NCBI GenBank assembly: GCA_020721005.1
Contig: DYNP01000014.1
Coordinates: forward strand, 1-64,000
DNA length: 64,000 nucleotides
Direction: 5' to 3'
DNA from: Thiomargarita sp.
GTDB taxonomy: Bacteria; Pseudomonadota; Gammaproteobacteria; Beggiatoales; Beggiatoaceae
Shown here: in pieces, positions 337 through 16,227 of the stretch
How positions within the stretch are numbered: position 1 is the stretch's first letter
Layout of the letters: each line of letters begins with the position of its first letter
Position numbers and translations under genes: made by a program
The notes under the pieces: generated by a model
What the model saw: the letters and a program-made list of their open reading frames with translations, nothing else
What the model was told of the DNA's origin: nothing
Database searches by the model: none

Positions 337-3300
337 TCATTTATTGTCAATCATATCATCAGCCGTAATTTCTGAATTTTCCTCCTTCACGTTGTTTTGA
401 CTGTCAGCCATCGCGCAGTCACCAGAGATAAGGGCGTGGAATTTAACATTCTTCTGTTTAATCTGGTCTTCCAACTGGCTTAAGTCAGTTTCAGGGTAAG
501 GCGAAGCGTCAGTGGCTAACATCAGAATGCCACCGTCTTGGAGATGTTTAAGTCCTATTTCTAAAGCTTCCGCTGAGGCTTCCGGACATTCGCCACCGCC
601 CGTCGCGCGTAACTGTTCGGCGGCATTCAACAACAGTTGCAAGTCTTGAGTGAAGACGTTCAGTTTCACGTCATCCTTGAAAGTGACAAGGGCTGCGCTC
701 GGTCTTTGGTCGGCGGGCACTTCTGCAATAAAGGTCTTAATCGCTGCCACCACACCGTTAAGCTCTTCCTGCATACTGTTAGTAGTGTCGAGCACAAAAA
801 TCATGTCCATTTTGACGTCGTCAGGAATAAAAATAGGCGTCCGTTCTTTGACCGTATGGGGAGAATAATTGGCCGCGAAGACTGTCGCATCATTGGTCAG
901 CAGTAACATTCCAGCGTCTTTGAGTAACACTTCTAAATTAACGGTAGTTTGACCTCCCACGGGTAAATCCGGCAGTGAGCAAATGACGATCGGCAATGTT
1001 GTGGTATCGCAGTCACCAAATTCCGTTGTGGCGGTTTGCAATTCCACTCCACTGGGAAGCTCAGACACCAACTTTACTTCCGTTGCAGCTGCCGTGGCAA
1101 GGGGGCTTAATTCCACTTGATAAGTATACTGTAACTTATCCAGCATATTCACCGGATCAGGAGTATCCTTGGTCTTCACAGACAACAGGGGCTTTACCTC
1201 TGTCAACGTCTTAGCAATGTCTCCTGGATAGTTGTGGGCGGTCACCTTGACTGTATTTTCCAACACCGTCACTTCCATGGGCTTGATCACCAATTTGACA
1301 GTAGAAGACGCATTTGCCGCCAAGTCAGGCAAGGTACAACTGACCGTTTGCATGTCACAATCACCTCCATCAAGCGATTCTAAAGACAACAATTCTGCAC
1401 CTGTGGGGAGAATGTCTTCCAGGATCAGGGCTATTGCCGTTTCAGTACCCGTATTCGTAACGGTGACATTATAAGTCAGATTTTCTTCCAGTCCCACTGC
1501 TGAAGAAGGAGAGACACCGACCTTTAATTGGAGCAATGAACCGACCGGTTTGGCATGGCAAGTATAGAGTGAATTTTTATTTTGTTGACATTGAATCACT
1601 TGGGATTGATAACCACTGCCTGACAACGTTGCGACATAAGCAGATTCACCGACGGGCAGCCCCGTGAGACGCCAGTTACCCTCAGCATCTGTGGTGGTGA
1701 TTTCCTCACCCAACTGAACGATGACACCGGCTACAGGTTGATTAAAATCATCCACCAATTTGCCAAAGGCGGAGGCGCCGGTTATTTCTGTGTTTGGAGT
1801 AGTTGGTTCAACGGTCTCATCAGGTTTGACATTGATACGAATTTCTGCCACTGCAGTCATTGAGGGATCATTTTGAGAAGTGGCAACCCACGTAATCACA
1901 TCCTCAGCACCACGAGTTGCAGGCACGGTGACTTCAAAATTCAATTCAGCATGCGCTTGACCAGCAATCGTAACCACCGTTGGCACTTCTTTGAGGTTGA
2001 ATTCACTCGCTACATTCGTCATTGTGAGAGTATAACTGTCTTCTGTGGGACCGCCATTGATCAACGTCATCGACATGGTTACCGTCTCACCAGGTTCAGC
2101 AACGACATGCTCTGTGCCCGACCAAGACGCATAATAAAGAATTTTTGCCGGACCTGTGATCAGATTGGGAGTTTGTACCACCTGTTGCAAAGTGACCCCT
2201 TCGTCAAGCAAAATTGAATTGGCAAAAATTTCCACCTTTTCTGCTGCTTTGAGGGCATTGGCTGCACTGCCTCGGAAGTCAATCACGCCCTCTTTACCAA
2301 TGGCCAGAGTGATGGTCTTCGCCGCATTGATAGCACCTTCGGACAGATTGCGCAACTCCATAATCCAGTCTTCCCCTCCGAAGATGACGATATCATCAGC
2401 ATCTTCAATGCGAGTGGTACTGTCAAAAGTAAGAGTCGTGGGGTCAATTCCTATAACGCCGCCTGGACCTCCTCCAATAATGGTACCTCGGTTATTGCCA
2501 ATATTGACCTCAGCACGTCCCCCCACACCAGCTCTTCCACCTGTGCCATTCCACCATACTTCAGCACTTCCACCCCAACCGCCTATCAATTTGCCGGTGC
2601 TGGAATTGACTGATTCCGCCATATTTGTAGCTTGAACACGTACTAAGCCACCGTTACCACCTTTAGTAGTACCATTTCCATGCACGCAGTGAAACATTCC
2701 ACATCGATCTGCAACCCCCCCATTCCCAGCTCGAATGATACCGTTATTGGTGATTCGGGCAGGATAAATTTCGACGCTCCCACCTGCACCTCCTAAGGCT
2801 GGCACTTGATAATTATCCGCCATATATAGCCAAGTAGAATCCGTGCCGCCATTGCCGGCGATAATTGTACCGTCATTGACAACTTGATTGCCCCACAGAA
2901 TAATATTGCTTCCACCAGTTGCATGTCGGAAAGGTCGCGGACCTCTGCCATCAGGATCAATTCCATTCAGTCCATTAGCCCCTTTGATAGTACCTCGATT
3001 ACGAATACTGGCTGCCTGAATTGCTACCCAAGTGGTTGGCTGACCCCATGAATTGGCAGCACTGGTGAGAATCGCATTTCTAGCAACACACAGTCCTCTT
3101 ACCCGATAAGGTTGATTAGAATAAATGAGGGGTGGTTCCTTAAGAGTGACCGTGGTCCCTGCAGAAATAGTCACCCAAGCCGAAGAATTTGGTACCACGG
3201 CAGGACTCCAAGTGGTGGGGTCAGACCAATTGCCAGTTTTGACAGATTTTACCGTTGCCACACCTGCAACACAGGGATCCGTTTGACTATTACGGACAGT

Positions 3301-4992
3301 AACGAAGTTGGCACTACAATTCTTGGCTTCAGACAGAGTCACCGTTGTCGTCGTTGCAGTCCCAGTGCAATCTCCTCCCCAATTGACGAATTGAGAACTT
3401 TCCATAGGGATAGCAGTTAAAGTGATTTGCGTATCGGCAGAATAACCTTCTGTACAATCGGTGCCACAATTAATACCCGTGGCAGTCACATCGCCATAAC
3501 CAGTTTTGGTCACGGTCAGAGTCATTTTCCCGTAAAGTTGCTTGATTTCAATTTCAGAAAGAGCACGGTTGTAAATGCGCAAATCATCAAGCAAGCCGTC
3601 AAAAGTTCTTCCAGGTGGCAGTAATGAAGTGATAACTCTGCCGTATGTGCGATAGTAAGTCCCTATTAAAATATCATAGGGGTTATCAAGAGTACCTGTG
3701 TGTTGAACGGTTTTCTCACTGACCAACACACCATCAATGTAGAGTTTAGTATTACCGGCATTGTAGATTGCAGACACATGATGAAACTCCTTGATTGGCA
3801 AGGTATAACTTGGATATTTGCCGGGCATCCAACCTTCATTATTGAAACCACTGATAGCAAATAAGGTACTGCCACTGAAACCACTGCCATTGCCATCATT
3901 TGAAGTAGACCATAAATGAAAACCTATTACACCAGGGTTATAGGAGTACTTGGAGAAGATTGACTGTCCTCTGCCATTGGTTGAGACCCAGGCGGCAATT
4001 GTGTACTGATCTGTAAATTTCTGAATGGGATTGGGAACACGAAGATAGCCCAAATATCCACCATTCAATTTGGCTGCTTGACCCATTGTGCCTGTTACAT
4101 AACTGACTCCACTGTGGGCAAGTGCATGATTGCTATTGCCACTCCCATCCAACGAATTCCCATCAAAGGGATAGCAGGCGACTAAGCCAGTCGTGATACC
4201 CTCGCATTTGGGGGGTTGAATACCCGCGAGTTGTTCAATTTCAGAGGGAGACAACGCGCGCTTGTAAATGCGCAAGTCATCCATTACCCCATAAAATTGT
4301 TGTCCAGTCTCAAAACAGCCATTGACGCAATCTTGATCCTGTCCTAGATGAAGGAAACTGCTAATCTGAAGTGGTGGCATTAGTTTGGTGAACTGCACCG
4401 CTTTTACCAGTTGACCGTTCACATAAGTGTTGTGCGCCTTTGAAGAAGTGGTTATTGCCAGGTGAAAGAACTGCTGAACAGGTACTGCCCATCCGGTGGG
4501 GTAGCTAGTGGTGTAAATAGAAGGTGCAACCTTTCCATTGTTCAGAAAAATGAGGTATTCATTATGATAAATGTTGTTTTTTGCACCACTCAGAATTCCC
4601 ATGCTTCTTAAGTTGTCAACCGACAACCAGATAGAAACAGTTGTCTCTGAATAGCCGTTTAAAGATCCATTGGGTAACTTAATGATATCCTTAAATTTGC
4701 TAAATTTGTAAGCACTGTTGGCATTTCCCAATCTATCAGCGGTCGGGGTAATAGTGCCACTTATTGTGCCATGATAGCCATTCCCACTGTAATCCTTAGC
4801 ATCACCATCAAAGGGATAGCAAGCCACCATTCCCTCACTGGGTTCGGAACAAGATGGAGTTTGGGCCAAGCCCCATGAGGGAAAAAGCAAGCCAGAAGCG
4901 CTTAAGATTCCGATGAAACCCAGTGCGTGGAGACGAGTCCACTGTTTTTTATCAGGCAACAAATTGCCAAAAAGTATATTTTGCGTTCGCAC
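337..4992 (-). CDS. Giant secreted LamG/DUF11/vWA-domain surface protein (1551 aa)
   Basis: An N-terminal signal peptide ends near residue 43 (...SWGLAQ). Two LamG/concanavalin-like modules follow (about 54-258 and 268-490), each opening with a CYPFDG motif and closing with DDLRIY(K/N)RALS. Then come a bacterial beta-repeat with paired cysteines (about 490-560), a W-rich beta region followed by a Gly/Asn-rich beta-solenoid-like stretch (570-860), a CARDB/NEW3-like sandwich (about 970-1080), a carboxypeptidase-regulatory-like domain (about 1095-1160), two DUF11 repeats (about 1180-1400) and a C-terminal vWA domain whose metal site reads DTTNS. These modules are typical of adhesins that bind glycans or matrix; the ligand is unknown. 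The vWA domain stops after the SGDCA strand, short of its usual last helix. From the carboxypeptidase-like domain onward the protein parallels the gene at 5197-10560. Confidence 0.8.
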   Translation of the reverse strand: MRTQNILFGNLLPDKKQWTRLHALGFIGILSASGLLFPSWGLAQTPSCSEPSEGMVACYPFDGDAKDYSGNGYHGTISGTITPTADRLGNANSAYKFSKFKDIIKLPNGSLNGYSETTVSIWLSVDNLRSMGILSGAKNNIYHNEYLIFLNNGKVAPSIYTTSYPTGWAVPVQQFFHLAITTSSKAHNTYVNGQLVKAVQFTKLMPPLQISSFLHLGQDQDCVNGCFETGQQFYGVMDDLRIYKRALSPSEIEQLAGIQPPKCEGITTGLVACYPFDGNSLDGSGNSNHALAHSGVSYVTGTMGQAAKLNGGYLGYLRVPNPIQKFTDQYTIAAWVSTNGRGQSIFSKYSYNPGVIGFHLWSTSNDGNGSGFSGSTLFAISGFNNEGWMPGKYPSYTLPIKEFHHVSAIYNAGNTKLYIDGVLVSEKTVQHTGTLDNPYDILIGTYYRTYGRVITSLLPPGRTFDGLLDDLRIYNRALSEIEIKQLYGKMTLTVTKTGYGDVTATGINCGTDCTEGYSADTQITLTAIPMESSQFVNWGGDCTGTATTTTVTLSEAKNCSANFVTVRNSQTDPCVAGVATVKSVKTGNWSDPTTWSPAVVPNSSAWVTISAGTTVTLKEPPLIYSNQPYRVRGLCVARNAILTSAANSWGQPTTWVAIQAASIRNRGTIKGANGLNGIDPDGRGPRPFRHATGGSNIILWGNQVVNDGTIIAGNGGTDSTWLYMADNYQVPALGGAGGSVEIYPARITNNGIIRAGNGGVADRCGMFHCVHGNGTTKGGNGGLVRVQATNMAESVNSSTGKLIGGWGGSAEVWWNGTGGRAGVGGRAEVNIGNNRGTIIGGGPGGVIGIDPTTLTFDSTTRIEDADDIVIFGGEDWIMELRNLSEGAINAAKTITLAIGKEGVIDFRGSAANALKAAEKVEIFANSILLDEGVTLQQVVQTPNLITGPAKILYYASWSGTEHVVAEPGETVTMSMTLINGGPTEDSYTLTMTNVASEFNLKEVPTVVTIAGQAHAELNFEVTVPATRGAEDVITWVATSQNDPSMTAVAEIRINVKPDETVEPTTPNTEITGASAFGKLVDDFNQPVAGVIVQLGEEITTTDAEGNWRLTGLPVGESAYVATLSGSGYQSQVIQCQQNKNSLYTCHAKPVGSLLQLKVGVSPSSAVGLEENLTYNVTVTNTGTETAIALILEDILPTGAELLSLESLDGGDCDMQTVSCTLPDLAANASSTVKLVIKPMEVTVLENTVKVTAHNYPGDIAKTLTEVKPLLSVKTKDTPDPVNMLDKLQYTYQVELSPLATAAATEVKLVSELPSGVELQTATTEFGDCDTTTLPIVICSLPDLPVGGQTTVNLEVLLKDAGMLLLTNDATVFAANYSPHTVKERTPIFIPDDVKMDMIFVLDTTNSMQEELNGVVAAIKTFIAEVPADQRPSAALVTFKDDVKLNVFTQDLQLLLNAAEQLRATGGGECPEASAEALEIGLKHLQDGGILMLATDASPYPETDLSQLEDQIKQKNVKFHALISGDCAMADSQNNVKEENSEITADDMIDNK

Positions 4993-5196: not shown

Positions 5197-8100
5197 TTAC
5201 TGATTTACTGCTTGAGCAAACTCGTTGTCATTCGCACTGTTCCCGTCAGCACAATCTCCGGTAACTGTGGCGTGAAAACGAATATTCTTGGCTTGTAACA
5301 AGTCCAAAACCGCTTGCACATTGGCGTCAGGATAAGGAGAAGCGTCGGTGGTGAACCAAATTTGACCACCTGGCCGTACGTGTAACGTGGCCACTTCCAC
5401 TGCTTCTGCCGAAGCTTCTGGGCAAGTCCCACCGCCTTCTGCTTTCAGACCTTCCACGGCTTTCAATAACACATTCATATCCTTAGTGAAAGCTTTCACT
5501 GTGACCTCATCCTTGAACACAATCAGCGCCATCAGTGGGGAACTGGCTGGGTCCAGAGTGGCAATGAATTGTTTCAAAGCCGCTTTGGTGCCGTCAATTT
5601 CACCTTGCATGCTGCCCGTAATATCAACCACCATAGCCAAGTCGGCTTGAATAGTGGCGGGAATAAGGATCTTATTGCGCACTTTACTGCTGTGTTGAGC
5701 ATAGTTCTCAGCAGAGACTGTGGTTTCTTGAGTCAGTGCCAACAACCCAGCATCTTGCAAAATCAGATGGCTGTGAATAGTGGCCTGATTGCCCAAATTA
5801 TCGTTGCTCAGTTCAGACAATTCACAAGTCAGAGTGGGCAATTGATCAGTCTTGCAGCTGCCAAAATCCGTAGTCACAGAATGCAATTTCACTCCAGTGG
5901 GTAAAGTTGAGACCACTTTGACTCCAGTGGCTGGGGTCGGTGCAGTGGATTGCAAGTTCACAGTGGTTATGCACTCCAAACTTTCCAACATAGGCACTGG
6001 ATTGGGAGTGCATTGGGTAGAGACCGACAACACTGGTATCACTTCCTTGACATTGGTCACCTGATCAAGAGGATAATTGCTGGCAGTTACCGTGGCCGTA
6101 TTTTCCAGACGACCGGTATCTGGCGCATTGACCATGACCTTGATTTTAGCCGTTTGATGGGCTGCCAATTCAGCAATGTGGCAACTGAGACTGTTAAGAT
6201 CACAATTCTCTCCATCCACTGATAACAAAGTAGTGCCTTCGGGAATCACATCTTGAACACGCACTCCAGTGGCAGGTTTGGGACCGTTATTGGTCACATT
6301 GAGCACATAAGTGATATTGTCACCGGGTTTGACCAATTTGGGTTGCGCAGAAATTTGCAATTTCAACAAAGAAGCCAATTTCAAAGGCACATTGGCTTTG
6401 GGCAGGGCTTGCCCAACTTCAAATTGTTGAATGACTGACAAATACCCTTCTTTATAAGCTTCAGCAGTATAATTCCCTGCCACCAGGTCCACAATTTCCC
6501 ATTGACCTTGAGCATCGGTGAGGGCAGTTTGACTGCCAATTTGCACTGTCACTCCGGCAACTGTTCCCAATTTATCCTTAACAGTCCCAAAGGCGCTGTA
6601 AGGACCTTTTTCCAAAGCAATCAAGGGACAATCACTGGTTGCCAACACGGTGGATTCTCCGCTGCGTTGACCGCTGCGCTTGAACCAGCTTTTTACAGTG
6701 CTGACAACTTTGCTGAGAGTAGTGGGCAGTTTCACCAGGGCATTGCTCACATTCAACACCGTCTTAGAGATATTGGCTGTCTTGGTCACAAATCCCAAGA
6801 AGGAACTGCCAGGAGCGGTAATGTTTGCAACCTTGCCGGCTAAGCTGGCGACCGTGCAGAAAAACCAGCAACTGGCGCTGGTGCTGGCAGTGCTTGCTTT
6901 GTTAAAGGCCCAATTTTGAACAGTGGTGGCTATATTATTTATCACCGGGGCTTTGTTCAGCAACCAGTTGGCACCGACGTTGACCACATTGGCCACAGTG
7001 TTGACAAAACCGCTGGCTTTGGCGACTACTCCAAACGCGTTATTTACAAAACCAACCGCTTTTTGAGTCACTTTTTTGATTGAGTCCCAAAGTCCACGAG
7101 TACTGCCTCGATCGCCAGTATCTGCAGTATCTGCAGTTAAACATTGGCCAGTGAGATTGTCAATCACTTGCACACTGCCGTCCATGGGATTGACGATGGA
7201 AACCCAATCTGGGTTTTCGGGATCGTGGACGGTGTAAATGCCTTGTGCATCACGGGTTGCCGACATTCCAGAATGAAGGTCTGTGATCTGGACCTGCCCA
7301 GTTTGATCAAAAGTCATTGACAACTCAGGCATGCTCGCATCGGTCACCACAGTATTGCCTTCCGCATTATAAGTGGCAATTACCCCTGGGAACGCTTCAT
7401 TGGTGGCAGTGGCAGTTCCATCTAGCATTGCAGTAAATATAATGCCGGGAGCGGTTTCATCGAGCACGGAGATGCTGCCATCTTCGTTTAAAGCAGCTGA
7501 CAAATTAGGTTCTTCAGTGTCGGTAAAAATTGCAGTCCCATCCGGATGCAAGGTCAAAGCAGTGTTGGGAGATTGCGCATCAATCAGAGAATAGCTGCCA
7601 TCTGGATTGGGAACAACCTTTGTTGAAGAAACTGCTTTGGTATCAGTGAGATTTTGACCGGTGATAATGGTCAATTCGTCGCCCGTGCCAGAGCCTTGTG
7701 GTTTGATTGCCATCGTCGTGAGACCATTGGTGGCAGTGTAAGTGCCATCCCCATTGTCAACCACTTGCAATTCCGTTTCGGGACCGGGGGCAGGTTGAAT
7801 TTCCAAGGTGTGAGTGGCGTCAGTGATGATCAGTCCATCATCCACGCTGGAAGATTGGAGTTCACCTTGTAGGGTAAACACAGCAGTTTCTGCGTTGACA
7901 GTGACTGATTGTGAGGGGAATGTATAACCTGCTTTGGTGACAGTAATTTGATGTTCTCCTACGGGTAAATCCATGAGCATCCATTGCCCTTGAGCATCAG
8001 TAGTCGTGGTCTGCTCACCGATTTGAACCGTGGCTTCTGCAAGAGGTTGACCGGCAGGATCCAAAACTTTGCCATAAAGATCATAGACTTCAAGGGCCAC

Positions 8101-10560
8101 TTTTAGGTGTAAAGTGGTGGTGACTTGGAGACTGGGATCAGTTTGAGAAGTGGCAGTCACGGTGACAGTATTGGCTGCACCTCGGCTGAGTGGAAGGATC
8201 ACTGGGCATTCCAACTTGACATTGCGTTGACTGTTGACAGTCACAGTTTTAGGAAGCGTGCACATTGCCCAATCTTGAGGATTGCTGACAGTCAAAGTGT
8301 AAGTGTCTTTGGCAGGTCCCAAATTGTCCAAGGTCAAGGGCAATAGCAGAGTTTCGGCCGGTTCACCTATCATTGTTTCTTCGCTGCTGAACCAGCTGGC
8401 ATACATCAAAAGTTTGGCCGGTTGAAGAGTGACTTTGGGAGCATCCACCAATTGGGCTAAGGTTTTGCCTGGCGGTAAGATGAGATTGTCTGTATAAACG
8501 ATCATTTCTTCACCGGCTTTAAAGGCTTTGTTGCTGACTTGACTAAAGTCAATAATGCCACCTTTGCCAACTGCCCAGGTGAGAGTTTTTTCAGCAGTAA
8601 CAGCACCTTCGGCAAGATTACCGACTTCGATTTTACCGTCGTCGTCGCCAAAAATAGTAATGTTTTCTGAGTTTAAACGAGTGTCTATATCCAATTTGAT
8701 ATGGATGGGATCTATGGTCAGAGCATTGGAGCCAAAAATAACGGAACGAGTGCTCAATCCAGTGCAGTTTATAACTGCTGATCCCCCAAATCCACCAGCT
8801 CCATGTTGAGTGGTACCGCCATTTCCAGTTTGCAGTCTCCCTTGAGAAGTGGATTCGCATTCTCCTGTGCCCGTAATGGTTAATTGTCCTCCGTTTCCAC
8901 CATTAATTGACCCCATTAGGAAAGCATACAGTCCTACACCGCCATTGCCGGTTTGGATGGTTCCAGAATTGGAGAGATCAGCAGTGTCGATTCTGACAGG
9001 TCCTCCATTTCCTCCGAAAAGGGAGCGATAGTCTCCACCAGAATATCCACCATTCCCTGAGCGAACTACACCTTCATTTTGAAATTTGCCAGTCACAGTA
9101 AGCGCAATTCCCACACCAGGCCCTCTGCCCAATGCGCCATCACTGGAAACTATTGTGCCTCTGTTATGGAAGTTTCTGGCATTGATTGCCAACCAATATT
9201 GTTGTCCATCGGCAGGAGGAGGACCAGAGGGACTTTGCAAAGTGCCCTCATTACAAAGGACGCCTACTCGTTGATTTGCATTGGGGGGAATGACACAAGA
9301 TACACCTGCGGGAACAAATAAACTGTCTTGAGCTGTCAAATCTCCATTTGGATCCCAACTGGTTGGATCGTTCCAAACACAAGGATTTTTGGCTGTTTTG
9401 AGATTTCGAGTCATGCCAAATGCGCAGTGCTCTATGCCTCGAGTCCCACTCTTTTGGTTTTTGGGAACAATCACTTTATCTACCAGGTTGGCAGGAGGCG
9501 TTTTCAGTTGTCGATAGGAAACACTGTTTAAGTTTGTACCATAATCCACACACAATCCCCTTACACGCAACTCGTCATTTTTCAACCGTGAAGTGGTGAT
9601 TGCGGGTGCTCTCACTGAATGTCCGGAACTGATCTTGACCCAATCCGACCGATTGGGAACACGTCCTGTACTCCAAACATCAGCGTCTTTCCAGTCCCCA
9701 CTTCGGGTGGACCACACATTGACTGCTTTCACATCACAAGGATGCGTGGTAACTGCATCTCGTACGATGATTCGACCCGTTCCTTCTGCCTTTGCGCCAT
9801 TATCACTGATCGCAGTGACTTTGACTGGATATTCTCCCCCTTTAGGAAAGGATACCGCAAGTTCGATGGGCAGTTTGGCTGCAGCCACCCGATCGATAGC
9901 CGCCACTGTCTTTACTGACGTGTAGCCAAAAGCTTCTACTGTGAGGGTTAAATCACTGCCATCCGGGCTATTGTCTATCACGTAACCCCCCACTTTGACC
10001 TCTTCTCTGGCATCGGTCTGCTGATCATTGGCAAGGACACACAGAGTACAATTTGGACGTTCCACACCGTCCCAGAGGCCAAAATTGATGACCAATTCCC
10101 GATTATCTGGCAAATCAGTGTAAAATTGCTCAAATAATCCCACATCATACCCTAAAACAGGAGATGTCTGCCAAAATGGTTCTTTTACACCAGTCCAAAC
10201 GGTGTACTTACCCACGGGCAATCCAGTCAAACGATACCGTCCCTCCATATCAGTGTAAGTGGTATAATAACCTCCTTTATTGGCATTGGCCAAGGTATCA
10301 TTACGTATATAAACGACCTCTGCGGCAAATCCTTTTTCACCTGGATCTTGAACAGCATTGTTATTGAGATCGTTGAATTTCACGCCTGAAATAATAGAGG
10401 TAGCCAAGGCAGCTGCAGGCAGAGTGCTTGCCCCTACGACAGCACCTATTGCCAAGCCTACCTGAGTCCAGCGAGTGAGGGTTGATCGCCAACCCATGAT
10501 TGTTGCACTTCCACTGCCTTTGGAAGTGGGTCTATTGCGGTCTGAACAACTCATGTTCAT
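5197..10560 (-). CDS. Giant secreted SdrD/DUF11/vWA-domain surface protein (1787 aa)
   Basis: Paralogue of the neighbouring giant protein with a different front end. A signal/membrane segment lies around residues 34-53 (AIGAVVGASTLPAAALA). An SdrD B-like domain (about 55-150) starts with GVKFNDLNNNAVQDPGE. Two W-rich units (GDWKDADVW near 290, and near 395) lead into a Gly-rich beta region (about 465-605). A regulatory-like sandwich follows (about 840-900), then seven degenerate 20-residue beta repeats (about 1000-1138), an Ala/Val-rich segment (about 1150-1290), a second regulatory-like domain (about 1310-1375), two DUF11 repeats (about 1390-1620) and a vWA domain with metal motif DITGS near 1645. 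As in its neighbour, the protein ends just after the vWA strand ending in TGDCA. A terminator directly behind the stop argues that this end is real. Confidence 0.8.
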   Translation of the reverse strand: MNMSCSDRNRPTSKGSGSATIMGWRSTLTRWTQVGLAIGAVVGASTLPAAALATSIISGVKFNDLNNNAVQDPGEKGFAAEVVYIRNDTLANANKGGYYTTYTDMEGRYRLTGLPVGKYTVWTGVKEPFWQTSPVLGYDVGLFEQFYTDLPDNRELVINFGLWDGVERPNCTLCVLANDQQTDAREEVKVGGYVIDNSPDGSDLTLTVEAFGYTSVKTVAAIDRVAAAKLPIELAVSFPKGGEYPVKVTAISDNGAKAEGTGRIIVRDAVTTHPCDVKAVNVWSTRSGDWKDADVWSTGRVPNRSDWVKISSGHSVRAPAITTSRLKNDELRVRGLCVDYGTNLNSVSYRQLKTPPANLVDKVIVPKNQKSGTRGIEHCAFGMTRNLKTAKNPCVWNDPTSWDPNGDLTAQDSLFVPAGVSCVIPPNANQRVGVLCNEGTLQSPSGPPPADGQQYWLAINARNFHNRGTIVSSDGALGRGPGVGIALTVTGKFQNEGVVRSGNGGYSGGDYRSLFGGNGGPVRIDTADLSNSGTIQTGNGGVGLYAFLMGSINGGNGGQLTITGTGECESTSQGRLQTGNGGTTQHGAGGFGGSAVINCTGLSTRSVIFGSNALTIDPIHIKLDIDTRLNSENITIFGDDDGKIEVGNLAEGAVTAEKTLTWAVGKGGIIDFSQVSNKAFKAGEEMIVYTDNLILPPGKTLAQLVDAPKVTLQPAKLLMYASWFSSEETMIGEPAETLLLPLTLDNLGPAKDTYTLTVSNPQDWAMCTLPKTVTVNSQRNVKLECPVILPLSRGAANTVTVTATSQTDPSLQVTTTLHLKVALEVYDLYGKVLDPAGQPLAEATVQIGEQTTTTDAQGQWMLMDLPVGEHQITVTKAGYTFPSQSVTVNAETAVFTLQGELQSSSVDDGLIITDATHTLEIQPAPGPETELQVVDNGDGTYTATNGLTTMAIKPQGSGTGDELTIITGQNLTDTKAVSSTKVVPNPDGSYSLIDAQSPNTALTLHPDGTAIFTDTEEPNLSAALNEDGSISVLDETAPGIIFTAMLDGTATATNEAFPGVIATYNAEGNTVVTDASMPELSMTFDQTGQVQITDLHSGMSATRDAQGIYTVHDPENPDWVSIVNPMDGSVQVIDNLTGQCLTADTADTGDRGSTRGLWDSIKKVTQKAVGFVNNAFGVVAKASGFVNTVANVVNVGANWLLNKAPVINNIATTVQNWAFNKASTASTSASCWFFCTVASLAGKVANITAPGSSFLGFVTKTANISKTVLNVSNALVKLPTTLSKVVSTVKSWFKRSGQRSGESTVLATSDCPLIALEKGPYSAFGTVKDKLGTVAGVTVQIGSQTALTDAQGQWEIVDLVAGNYTAEAYKEGYLSVIQQFEVGQALPKANVPLKLASLLKLQISAQPKLVKPGDNITYVLNVTNNGPKPATGVRVQDVIPEGTTLLSVDGENCDLNSLSCHIAELAAHQTAKIKVMVNAPDTGRLENTATVTASNYPLDQVTNVKEVIPVLSVSTQCTPNPVPMLESLECITTVNLQSTAPTPATGVKVVSTLPTGVKLHSVTTDFGSCKTDQLPTLTCELSELSNDNLGNQATIHSHLILQDAGLLALTQETTVSAENYAQHSSKVRNKILIPATIQADLAMVVDITGSMQGEIDGTKAALKQFIATLDPASSPLMALIVFKDEVTVKAFTKDMNVLLKAVEGLKAEGGGTCPEASAEAVEVATLHVRPGGQIWFTTDASPYPDANVQAVLDLLQAKNIRFHATVTGDCADGNSANDNEFAQAVNQ

Positions 10561-11226: not shown

Positions 11227-11414
11227 TTTTGGCCAAAAATAAAGGGCAGTCCCCAGATGTAGATTACTTAAAACCAGGATAACTTAAAAACTGAAGTTTC
11301 TCCCTCCCTTAATTCTTGTCAATACGTTATATTTGTGCAATACTTTTTAAGTTTGTTGTCGGAGTTTAATGGTCATTTTCCAGGATTTTAAATTTCAATA
11401 GCGTGAGGACTATT

Positions 11415-12992
11415 ATGTACTTTCAAATGGCAGTATTTAAAAGAAAGCATCATCTTCATTTGTTAGGGGTGTTGATGGGTTGCTTTATGGTGTTGGCACC
11501 TAACTTGTGGGCAATTCCAACGATTTTGTATCATCATGGAGATCCCACGGATCTTGAGCAGTACATGCTCGAGTTGATCAATCGTGCACGCGCAAATCCT
11601 GTTGCAGAAGGACAACGTTTAGAAGATCAGCGGCAAACCTGCCCTGAAAATTTTACGCATTGGTCAGAAGAATTTGCCAGTTATCCAATTGCACCCCCCT
11701 TGGCTTTTAATGCACAACTTCTTCAGGCTGCCCGACTTCATTCTCAAGATATGGTACAACGGAATTATTTTAGCCACGATACTCCTGAAGGGTTAAGTCC
11801 CAGCGATAGAGTCAAAGCACAGGGATATTCATTGGGGGCAGGAGAAAACATTTATAGCGGGGGAGCTACTACTGTTGAAGGAATCGAAGGATATCATGCT
11901 GGTTTTATGATAGATTGTGGCATACCTTCACTAGGTCATCGCTTAAATATTCTTTTCCCTTCTTATAAAGAAGTTGGCATTGGAAATGTTGTTATAGATG
12001 ATTCAGGACGTATCACACAAGATTTTGGGGCTGCATCAGAGCAAATCCTTTTGTTAGGTGTGGTTTATCACGATCGAGATGGCAATGGTTTTTATGGCCC
12101 AGGTGAAGGTCTAGGGGGAATCACAGTAATGCCTGCAGAGGGAGATTATTACGCCGTGACATCTGCTTCAGGTGGATATGCAATTCTGTTCACAGTCCTT
12201 GAAACCGTTGATGTAGGGGCTATTTCTAGCACAGTCCCTGTTAACAGTTCATGGACTCAGGTATCGCCCATAGCCGACGCATTTCAACAGGATTATCGAG
12301 CTAATCCTGCAAATCAGGCTACTCTGAATTTGACAGTCACATTTTCGGGGGGATCATTGTCAAATCCCAGCACCAAGAATATTTCTATGGTGAAACCTGT
12401 GTTGGTGAATTACCGAATTAACGAAGTGTCTGGAGGTGTCTACTGGCCTCAACAATTCATGTTGGGAAATAATGTGAAGTTGGATCTTGATACGGCAGTT
12501 TCTCAACCTCCGTTGGAAACACCAACCTCAGTTTTTCCCACATTGGGTCAGAATTTTAATGGCGGAATTGCGGTGAATGGTCAAGCATATCAAGCGCAAG
12601 CCACGTTGAATCTATCAGATACAGTAGACGTCAGTGGAGATATTCAAGTGGATGCCACTGATGTCGGCAAAACTGCAGATATTGTTGTGTATGCAGAAGC
12701 CACGTTGTCATCCTCACCGGAAAAAGTCTACTTTATGTTGGGAGAAGGTTTAACAATTTCAATGTGGGACCAAAATCCAGCAACGCTCGTGGCTTTTCAA
12801 CGTGACGTAACATTGAATACCTTACACTCGGTCCCAATGTACAGTGGACATTTCATTTACCCGGGAACGTTGAAGGTGTTTTTTGGCTATCGTTTGGCGG
12901 ATGGGACGTTGGTTGTTAACAGTCAGCCGATTGATATAACTATTTTGCCCTCCATCGCTATATTTTCATACCCATTTAGAACAACAGGTTAA
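11415..12992 (+). CDS. Secreted CAP-domain (SCP/PR1-like) protein
   Basis: A signal peptide (MYFQMAVFKRKHHLHLLG..., cleavage near LWA) is followed by a CAP domain at about 35-190, with LINRARANP, FNAQLLQAARLHSQDM, NYFSHDTPEG, GENIYSGG and a late His in GHRLNILFPSY. Bacterial CAP proteins are secreted proteins of varied function. A short SdrD/regulatory-like stretch (YHDRDGNGFYGPGEG) follows. Residues about 395-520 form a domain nearly identical in layout to one in the next gene (LSDTVDV...PIDITI). I chose the ATG at 11415 because GAGGA lies 5 bases upstream; a GTG at 11403 is in frame but contains that site. The protein is 525 residues. Confidence 0.82.
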   Translation: MYFQMAVFKRKHHLHLLGVLMGCFMVLAPNLWAIPTILYHHGDPTDLEQYMLELINRARANPVAEGQRLEDQRQTCPENFTHWSEEFASYPIAPPLAFNAQLLQAARLHSQDMVQRNYFSHDTPEGLSPSDRVKAQGYSLGAGENIYSGGATTVEGIEGYHAGFMIDCGIPSLGHRLNILFPSYKEVGIGNVVIDDSGRITQDFGAASEQILLLGVVYHDRDGNGFYGPGEGLGGITVMPAEGDYYAVTSASGGYAILFTVLETVDVGAISSTVPVNSSWTQVSPIADAFQQDYRANPANQATLNLTVTFSGGSLSNPSTKNISMVKPVLVNYRINEVSGGVYWPQQFMLGNNVKLDLDTAVSQPPLETPTSVFPTLGQNFNGGIAVNGQAYQAQATLNLSDTVDVSGDIQVDATDVGKTADIVVYAEATLSSSPEKVYFMLGEGLTISMWDQNPATLVAFQRDVTLNTLHSVPMYSGHFIYPGTLKVFFGYRLADGTLVVNSQPIDITILPSIAIFSYPFRTTG

Positions 12993-13010
12993 TTAACAGG
13001 AGAACTTAAA

Positions 13011-13239
13011 ATGAATCAAAATAAGAGTCAGCAATCGATCGGACAGTTCCGCCAGGTTATGTTGTGGCTGGGGACCAACCCTCCCCTTAATTTAGGGAAT
13101 TAAAGGTATGACGAACTCAAACTTTATCAAGTATATCCATAATGGTGTCGGCATTTTACGGGTGCTGGTGCAACAATTCTTAAGCATCCTGCTAATCACT
13201 CTTGCGCCAAATATTTGGGGTGTATCAATTCCTACTTGA
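13011..13239 (+). pseudogene. Remnants of small or secreted-protein reading frames
   Basis: The gap 12993-13419 has no intact gene. At 13011 an ATG with a good AGGAGA site opens a 30-codon frame ending at 13103. Frame 13144-13239, without its own start, reads like a signal peptide ending LAPNIWGVSIPT, which resembles LAPNLWAIPT of the CAP protein upstream. The ATG at 13110 is out of frame with it. I read this as a decayed duplicate of the neighbouring secreted-protein gene; a functional small protein is less likely. Confidence 0.35.
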
Positions 13240-13419
13240 TAGCATTTTTAATACTAACGTGCTTTTTTGTCCGAATCGCTGATTGACGCTGAGGTCACAG
13301 ATAACGCTGATTAACCGTGCCTAATTTAGCAGTGAGGTGGTTAACTCAATCTGCGTCATCCGTGTAATATGCGTCAATCGGTGATTCCAACTAGACAATT
13401 TTACAAGGAGAAATCTATT

Positions 13420-16227
13420 ATGTTCACCATAGGCATTACGCGGCTATTTCATATTCAATGTTGGTCTCCGCCCAAGGGATTAAACGTGGGTGGGGTGTGG
13501 GTTGCTTTGCTGTTTAGTTTCTTGGTCTCGACTGGGGATGTTGGGGCGGAAACGTTGACGGTGAAAGGGACGGGAAATGATACCTTTTGCGGGTATGATA
13601 TGACAGGAAAGCAAATGGGTTGTAGAAGTACCAATAGTGAAATTGAGTTATCTCCTGGTACTTACAGCGTTTCCTTACATGGCGCCAAACAAACTGCCAC
13701 TGTTCAAGCAGGACAAAAAACAACATTGGTAGCGGGTCTTGCCACGTTGAAAGGAACCGGGAATGACGCTTACTGTGTCTATGATTCGACGGGACAACAA
13801 ATGGGTTGTTTGAGTACCAATCAGGAAATAGAATTATTTCCTGGTACTTACAGTGTTTCCTTACATGGTGCTAAACAAACCGCTACTGTTCAAGCGGAAC
13901 AAAAAACGACATTGATAGCGGGTCTTGCCACGTTGAAAGGAACCGGGAATGACGCTTACTGTGTCTATGATTCGACGGGACAACAAATGGGTTGTTTGAG
14001 TACCAATCAGGAAATAGAATTATTCCCCGGCACTTACAACTTCTCCTTGCATGGTGCTAAACAAACCGCTACGGTTGAGGCTGAACAAAAAACGGTTTTG
14101 ACCGCAGGAATTTTGAAAATCCCAGGAAACGGTGAAGACACCTCTTGTGTCTATGATTCAACAGGACAGCAAATGGGTTGTTTGAGTACTGGCCGTGAAA
14201 TGGAATTGTTCGCCGGCACCTATACCGTCAAACTAAACGACACCAGCCAAACCATAGTCGTTGAGGCTGATGCGCCTTCTATTCCGGTTGCTACTCAACC
14301 TCCCATTGACCCTTCCGATGCGACTTCTACCCCAGTCGTCACTCACCCCCCTCTTGGCCCTTCTCAGGCCACCGACACCACCGGCAAACCGGTTACCACC
14401 ACCACCGTCATGGAAGGTGGCAACTCTGTCAATGGCAAATCACCCGAAAAACAGGTGAAGCAAAAACTATCGGATACGGTGGACGTTAAGGGCAACATCA
14501 CCGTTGACCCGGCTGATGTGGGGCAATTTGTTGACATTTTTGTCTATGCAGCAGCGACCTTTCCCGGTTCGGATACGGTCATGTACTTTATGTTGGGACC
14601 TGGACTCACTATCTCGGCCTGGGACCAAAATCCTGCCAGTTTAGTGGCCTTCACGAATGCTACTTTGGGAAGTGTGCAAACTGTGCCAATGTACAGTGGG
14701 ACCTTCTTTTATCCGGGGACGCTGAAAGTCTTTTTCGGTTATCGGTTAGACAATGGCACCTTGGTTAGAAATACTCAACCCATTGACATTACCATCGATG
14801 ATGACTCTGCCGCGGCAGTGAGTGCCAGCAATAACGAATTTGCTTCTACTTTTAAACGGGTAGAATACTACAAACCTGCTGGCTATTGCGCCGCAGATAT
14901 GATTTTGGTTTGGTTCCTTTTTGAAGCGACTGGGGTTAATACTTCTGATCTCCTGTACGTTGAAGAAAAGTCAATCTATCAAACGGATCCGGCCAACCCT
15001 TACGTTGAATCTCTTCAAGCATTTAATTCTGAAGGATTTATTGTGCGGGGATTTTGCGCTCCACCAGGCATGAAATCCGATTTTCAGGTTCGTCTTAAGG
15101 AAAAAAGCACTGGACGACTCAGCAATGTGATGGTTTTTACAGTGGATGTCAATTCTGCTGTCATCGATAAAGAAGCACCGCCGTTAACCGCTACTCCTGT
15201 GGAAACTGAACCAGCAAGCAGTGACCCAATCCTGGTCTCTCAAGTCACTAACCCTGATACTGAACTAGGATTTATTGCCACCACTGGCAAGGAGACCATG
15301 GAACTTTTTGGCACGAAGGATAGCCAAGGACGTTTAGTTAGTATTAATAAAATCTCCTTTGGTTCTCAAACCGATGAGAGTCAAAACCTCGTCATCACTT
15401 TGGACAAGGATTCTTTGCCGACCACGATGGAATTTCCTGATGGGTCCAAGGTGGAATATAGTAATTACACCAGTGAGGGTGCGACGGCTACTTATCGTCG
15501 TCCCGATGGCAGTGTCGCTAATCAAGCGTTTGTGCCAATGCCATTTGATGACATTCAGGAAGGTGCTAAAGCTATTGAACAATTTGTTCAGTCGCCTCAG
15601 CAAACCGAAGGCAATTCTGTACCTTCCTCACCAGGTAGTACAAGTTCACCGAATGACAGTAATTGTAAAGAGGTGATGGGGGCATTCTGTAACGCTGTGG
15701 ATAACCTATTTTGGGGAGTATTTCAATTAGCATCAGTTATGTCTTGTGCGGCCGCTGGAACTGCAACAATTTTGACAAGCGGTGCGGCGTTTCCCTTGGC
15801 AGCTTGGGCTTGTGGTTCTGTGATGTTAAGCGGCATTGCGAGAATGACAGATGTTATGACGGGGAAGGCAGGGTGTGGTAAAGAGGGATCTCCTCTCACA
15901 AAGTTAAGCAATTTGAATGATGTTGCACAAGGTGTAAGTGGCGGTTTAGCTGGTTTTATCCAACTTGTAGCTGATAAAATTCTCGTGGATGCACTGAAGG
16001 AGGCTTTGGATCCTGAGAAGGTGTGTCAAGCAGAACCCGAAAACAAATGTGACGCGATGGAAAAACTGTGTGACAAATACAAGGGAACCCTCTGGCCAGG
16101 CGGTGTGCCAGGGTCGTGTCTTTGTTCAGTTGGGCTTTCCCTTAGTCAGGAGGAAGGAAAGAAATTTGTGGAAGAATGTAAAGCCATCGCTGGTGAACCA
16201 CTGGGTATTGTGCAGTGTTCTTACTAG
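13420..16227 (+). CDS. Secreted protein with four tandem 60-residue repeats and the shared C-terminal domain
   Basis: A signal/membrane segment (GVWVALLFSFLVSTGDVGA) ends near residue 43. Four tandem repeats of about 60 residues follow (to about 285), each with the pattern L.GTGND..C.YD.TGQQMGC.S and a later PGTY. The conserved Cys pair suggests a disulfide-held fold. A Pro/Thr linker (about 288-340) leads to the domain shared with the CAP protein (about 348-457), a beta-rich region, and a Cys-rich C-terminus with an Ala-rich hydrophobic stretch near 770-810. I chose the ATG at 13420 because AAGGAG lies just upstream; an ATG at 13369 is in frame but lacks a site. Function unknown; it looks like a surface or matrix protein acting with the CAP protein. 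Confidence 0.75.
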   Translation: MFTIGITRLFHIQCWSPPKGLNVGGVWVALLFSFLVSTGDVGAETLTVKGTGNDTFCGYDMTGKQMGCRSTNSEIELSPGTYSVSLHGAKQTATVQAGQKTTLVAGLATLKGTGNDAYCVYDSTGQQMGCLSTNQEIELFPGTYSVSLHGAKQTATVQAEQKTTLIAGLATLKGTGNDAYCVYDSTGQQMGCLSTNQEIELFPGTYNFSLHGAKQTATVEAEQKTVLTAGILKIPGNGEDTSCVYDSTGQQMGCLSTGREMELFAGTYTVKLNDTSQTIVVEADAPSIPVATQPPIDPSDATSTPVVTHPPLGPSQATDTTGKPVTTTTVMEGGNSVNGKSPEKQVKQKLSDTVDVKGNITVDPADVGQFVDIFVYAAATFPGSDTVMYFMLGPGLTISAWDQNPASLVAFTNATLGSVQTVPMYSGTFFYPGTLKVFFGYRLDNGTLVRNTQPIDITIDDDSAAAVSASNNEFASTFKRVEYYKPAGYCAADMILVWFLFEATGVNTSDLLYVEEKSIYQTDPANPYVESLQAFNSEGFIVRGFCAPPGMKSDFQVRLKEKSTGRLSNVMVFTVDVNSAVIDKEAPPLTATPVETEPASSDPILVSQVTNPDTELGFIATTGKETMELFGTKDSQGRLVSINKISFGSQTDESQNLVITLDKDSLPTTMEFPDGSKVEYSNYTSEGATATYRRPDGSVANQAFVPMPFDDIQEGAKAIEQFVQSPQQTEGNSVPSSPGSTSSPNDSNCKEVMGAFCNAVDNLFWGVFQLASVMSCAAAGTATILTSGAAFPLAAWACGSVMLSGIARMTDVMTGKAGCGKEGSPLTKLSNLNDVAQGVSGGLAGFIQLVADKILVDALKEALDPEKVCQAEPENKCDAMEKLCDKYKGTLWPGGVPGSCLCSVGLSLSQEEGKKFVEECKAIAGEPLGIVQCSY
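13741..14112 (+). repeat. Two near-identical 186-bp units inside the repeat-protein gene
   Basis: Units 13741-13926 and 13927-14112 each encode 62 residues and are almost identical for their first 120 bases, including synonymous positions. The flanking units (from about 13555 and 14113) have diverged. The middle pair therefore looks like a recent duplication or a gene-conversion product. Confidence 0.88.

Follow-up and report, generated by a model that had tools for sequence, protein, structure and literature searches.

What joins a CAP-domain protein to the repeat protein encoded by the next gene, and what would the block that they have in common do for two otherwise dissimilar proteins? The question arises from a 64,000-nucleotide stretch of a Thiomargarita sp. 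genome (the window), for which an unrecognised domain, serving as a common attachment or interaction module, had been suggested from the sequence alone (the original prediction).

A block common to two neighbouring proteins

Both open reading frames are real, and comprise the following parts:

11403-12992, + strand: CAP-domain protein with signal peptide, ORF of 529 aa; the true start codon is probably a few codons downstream
11571-12023, + strand: CAP (cysteine-rich secretory protein family) domain, Pfam PF00188, residues 57-207, E 2.6e-10
12546-12944, + strand: shared, predicted Ig-like domain, copy 1, in the CAP protein; profile match E 6.2e-60, AlphaFold2 model pLDDT 95.1
13369-16227, + strand: repeat protein with internal copy 2, ORF of 952 aa; no Pfam family above cut-off
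13555-14250 (approximate limits), + strand: four N-terminal repeats of about 50 residues in the repeat protein, read from the translation
14326-14799, + strand: copy 2 plus its lead-in, which starts at about 14326; extended profile, E 1.4e-58
14395-14799, + strand: shared, predicted Ig-like domain, copy 2, in the repeat protein; profile match E 1.4e-55

BLASTP confirms the block between the CAP protein and the repeat protein (162 bits, E 9e-47, 53% over 169 residues), the remaining alignments between the two being at chance level. Its core is about 69% identical between the two copies, and its length is about 135 residues, or about 160 including a lead-in that is conserved in most copies (consensus LPxLGxxxAxxxxGxxxxTxxxFxGG). 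In the CAP protein, where PF00188 is the sole Pfam family, copy 1 is the last folded part and is followed by 15 residues, while the repeat protein is one of the minority of hosts with an internal domain. The N-terminal repeats of the latter (pattern GNDxxCxYDxTGxQMGCxSTxxEIELxPGTYxxxLHG) are near-identical, contain paired cysteines (CxYD...MGC) and match no Pfam family above cut-off. Upstream of the pair lie two adjoining giant surface-type proteins (337-4992 and 5197-10560, both on the - strand), each with DUF11, CarboxypepD_reg and a C-terminal VWA_4, and one also with LamG (Pfam).

Sequence family and predicted fold

Judged by its sequence, the domain appears to be undescribed, with no matching family in Pfam, NCBIfam or the PDB, in agreement with the original prediction. 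An alignment of 21 sequences compared with Pfam and NCBIfam (E <= 1), and 65 extended copies compared with Pfam, gave only weak and scattered matches, and PDB sequences matched at chance level. None of the known Pfam Ig-like families (Big_1, PKD, Big_7 and others) surpassed its curated cut-off; in Pfam, the window copy matches Big_7 alone (E 0.22), at 12.6 bits where 24.1 are required. No paper on such a domain was found in the open-access literature.

Structure prediction with AlphaFold2, run on two alignments, yields a compact all-beta Ig-like sandwich (mean pLDDT 95.1 and 95.7). Comparisons using Foldseek and VIA-align relate this model to Ig-like domains generally, antibodies included, and as no relative stands clear of the others, the model would secure the fold class alone and points to no close structural relative. 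Foldseek detects the AGS-C Ig domain (E 9.6e-4), and the best VIA-align match is the ester-bond adhesin domain CPE0147 (Z 8.7, 3.1 Å, 114 residues, 8% identity), with a Z within 1 of those of antibody and T-cell-receptor domains. The O-antigen-binding domain of Wzt is recovered in both comparisons (5hno, E 8e-4; 8dky, Z 8.3, 3.1 Å over 116 residues), a weak resemblance (TM 0.40) that antibodies and the Ig domains of adhesins equal. The fold matches listed include no type IX secretion system (T9SS) C-terminal domain (CTD), which excludes nothing.

Several columns are conserved across genera, namely Y116 (100%), G115 (96%), W75 (95%) and R117 (89%, alignment numbering), and further D76, Y100 and N126. 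Together W75, D76, Y100, Y116, R117 and N126 could form a site for a protein partner or for a glycan, or could be structural.

Distribution among genomes

The domain occurs widely outside the pair, so that the absence of other occurrences, which would have refuted the original prediction, clearly does not apply. The genome of the window (4.05 Mb, 99.7% complete) holds 23 copies according to a single-sequence search and 26 according to a profile, and the profile search of Beggiatoaceae and beyond that the original prediction had called for revealed a lineage-wide module. Within the order, 41 of 43 genomes carry it, with 1-63 copies each, as do all 31 genomes of good quality; since every one of the 43 belongs to a single family, the amplification is family-wide. 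Named carriers are Thiomargarita, Thioploca, Parabeggiatoa, Thiotrichaceae MAGs and one unassigned Guaymas gammaproteobacterium, their membership in the family being judged from the matching contigs. The module hence reaches wider than originally supposed, and its C-terminal placement, described below, is the main clue.

Other families almost entirely lack the domain. The single-sequence search found it in none of 21 other families, the profile in 2 of 365 class-mates, and a further sample drawn as "phylum" contained it in none of 397 other genomes. With a larger profile, the only match among class-mates was G258 (E 2.9e-18), a gammaproteobacterium of another family, in which 3 of 24 genomes carry the domain, perhaps through sporadic transfer; its copy (locus L165, 3753-4907) is located at the C-terminus of a DUF2202 protein. 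Spread by phage or plasmid was considered and rejected, with no relative of the domain in viral contigs and no match on plasmids.

Host proteins and placement of the domain

In total, 165 distinct copies were collected from about 20 genomes. The domain is present as a single copy in 146 of 154 host proteins, unlike in repeat adhesins. Among the sampled hosts with a complete end, which represent the best-scoring matches and not a random draw, 105 of 146 stop at most 8 residues past the domain and 118 at most 30; uniform placement would let 7.7 of 140 (SD 1.8) end near the domain, as compared to the 100 observed. The usual C-terminal copy terminates in PI(D/E)xTIxE directly before the stop, and in many the last strand finishes 1-2 residues ahead of it. 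When the 142 full-length copies are sorted by position, 113 lie at most 30 residues from the end, 12 near the N-terminus, directly behind the signal peptide, and 17 internally.

The hosts are diverse, with CAP, papain, LamG_3/WSC, L-type lectin plus VWA, NHL propeller, Sortilin/BNR propellers, beta-helix, Big_1/invasin, HYDIN/ASH Ig repeats, PKD plus astacin, GBD_T9SS_assoc, and choice-of-anchor I plus metallophosphatase. A crude score, and thus a weak test, assigns signal peptides to 111 of 148 hosts versus 278 of 577 other long ORFs. Two hosts (L067:4389-8713, on contig C73 of the genome of the window, and L070:5374-8823) contain long acidic low-complexity repeats (EEVVAEE, GEAVVEEV), and here the domain lies near the C-terminus, followed by an extra tail of 20-96 residues. 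In Thiotrichaceae S06.Bin195 (L037:5996-10399), three consecutive genes each end in the domain, the third encoding a CAP protein (Pfam) and the first two having near-identical signal peptides; this trio is a local expansion.

Exchange between hosts

In a tree of 144 copies, in which many forks are poorly supported, the two copies of the window belong to different subclades with different host types instead of forming a sister pair: copy 1 is placed beside the papain and PKD/astacin hosts of related genomes, copy 2 beside a LamG/WSC host and proteins related to it. Moreover, 82 of 131 domain pairs that are 50-70% identical lack detectable upstream similarity. These two findings show that the domain has passed between hosts as a unit and thus moves as a module. 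The exchange is not recent, as all pairs above 80% identity also share the upstream part. C-terminal versus other placement requires 22 changes on the tree, compared with 26.6 in shuffles, and placement has therefore changed many times.

Secretion machinery and gene neighbours

A conserved partner gene, for which the original prediction had proposed to look, did not emerge: when ORFs up to 5 kb from the hosts were clustered, broad families alone came out and no consistent partner, the widest cluster (26 loci, 8 genera) being apparently of sensor-kinase type, judging by the N-terminus. Exosortase was not found in G000, G002, G010, G007 or G028, a set comprising the genome of the window and several of the highest-copy genomes, and a PEP-CTERM/exosortase system was rejected on this ground. 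The type II secretin GspD scores above its curated cut-off in 41 of the order's 43 genomes; hence the type II route is available, with nothing linking it to the domain. Most of these genomes have two GspD genes, one scoring near 580 bits and the other near 380. Of the 43 genomes of the order, only one contained SprA (SprA_N), and it was not that of the window. The one positive genome, G031, has an estimated contamination of 5% and encodes full-length SprA, the T9SS translocon, on contig C34, likely as a contaminant.

Proposed role and alternatives

Single copies, sharp C-terminal placement, unrelated exported hosts, genome-wide dispersal and exchange between hosts together give the domain the anatomy of a sorting or anchoring tag. 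We therefore propose, at roughly even chances, that it represents a lineage-specific, transferable and mostly C-terminal targeting or retention tag. The hosts would leave the cytoplasm via Sec, using their signal peptides, and a common, family-specific partner, either an outer-membrane transporter or receptor, or a sheath polymer, would then recognise the folded C-terminal domain, be it in the periplasm or on the outer surface. In this manner, unrelated enzymes, lectins and adhesins could be brought to one place, presumably the surface or the sheath. That the Thiomargarita/Thioploca/Beggiatoa family possesses a system of its own for export across the outer membrane or for surface display, one not related to T9SS and with substrates (tens per genome) set by the domain, is a bolder proposition and unlikely. 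Of the originally suggested attachment or interaction module, the module is borne out by the distribution, the mostly C-terminal placement and the varied hosts, whereas attachment is what we infer from them.

Some observations count against a tag. About a fifth of the copies are not C-terminal, a freedom incompatible with a strict C-terminal signal, and neither a recurring machinery neighbour within 5 kb nor SprA or exosortase in the genome of the window was found. As that fifth is N-terminal or internal, an anchor binding sheath or polysaccharide is a serious rival. Here the domain would be a ligand-binding accessory, akin to a carbohydrate-binding module, that keeps its hosts attached to polysaccharide (the own sheath, mucilage or an external substrate) without being read by any secretion machinery, and it would likewise end in retention. 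Carbohydrate-binding modules are often single-copy and terminal at either end, as is the present domain, W75, Y100, Y116, R117, D76 and N126 would suit a putative site, and both structure comparisons recover O-antigen-binding domains of Wzt. However, the likeness to Wzt is no closer than that to antibodies and adhesin Ig domains, and the placement, with the last strand so near the stop in many copies, is sharper than binding alone needs. We consider this alternative rather doubtful, if clearly less so than the remaining two.

The domain may instead be a structural Ig-like end cap that stabilises its host, has no specific partner and became amplified as genes duplicated and fused. Such a cap would fit the generic fold and the abundance of other Ig-like repeats in several hosts, but structural Ig domains are usually tandem and inside proteins, while one copy, mostly at the end, is found here, and the columns conserved across genera, from the invariant Y116 to R117, also speak against it; we regard the end cap as improbable. 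If the module were a remote member of the T9SS signal-domain family of Bacteroidota and operated with a T9SS, the same placement, fold class and cargo diversity would be accounted for. T9SS tail models are absent from the matches listed for the 21 members (Pfam and NCBIfam, E <= 1) and from the 25 of 26 Pfam families listed for the 65 extended members, and SprA, the component searched for, was not found in the genome of the window. T9SS membership was consequently rejected, and has at most a very slim chance of being correct.

In the large sulfur bacteria (Thiomargarita, Thioploca and Beggiatoa relatives), which are mostly uncultured, the module makes recognisable a set of proteins that may represent the proteome of the surface or sheath. 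If the sorting tag is correct, it would point to an unknown export or anchoring pathway in Gammaproteobacteria; if sheath binding is, the domain would identify sheath-associated proteins. In either case, dozens of "hypothetical" proteins in each genome can be grouped by the profile into a single class amenable to testing.

Comparison with known systems

The C-terminal O-antigen-binding domain of Wzt is also a C-terminal beta-sandwich and shows a weak fold similarity; however, Wzt is a cytoplasmic ABC ATPase subunit, and the two are related by TM 0.40 with no sequence similarity found. Bacterial Ig-like adhesin domains (Big_1, PKD and ester-bond domains such as CPE0147) may share the predicted fold class, but are commonly tandem, and the module has 8% identity to CPE0147 and no Pfam match above cut-off. 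PEP-CTERM/exosortase sorting similarly involves numerous exported proteins with a dispersed tag at the C-terminus, yet PEP-CTERM combines a short motif and a transmembrane helix, in contrast to a folded domain.

The T9SS signal domain has an Ig-like beta-sandwich fold and, within a single lineage, occupies the extreme C-terminus of numerous unrelated proteins exported via Sec (PMC4804311, PMC11285876). The module differs from this Por secretion tail (TIGR04183/PF18962) in its length (about 135-160 versus 70-100 residues, with no sequence match), in the fifth or so of copies that are not C-terminal, and in its occurrence in Gammaproteobacteria, in a genome without SprA, as opposed to Bacteroidota. 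Nevertheless, both place a C-terminal Ig-like sandwich, predicted in the case of the module, on varied exported hosts, and by this resemblance the T9SS signal domain would serve as the closest working analogy for a targeting or retention tag.
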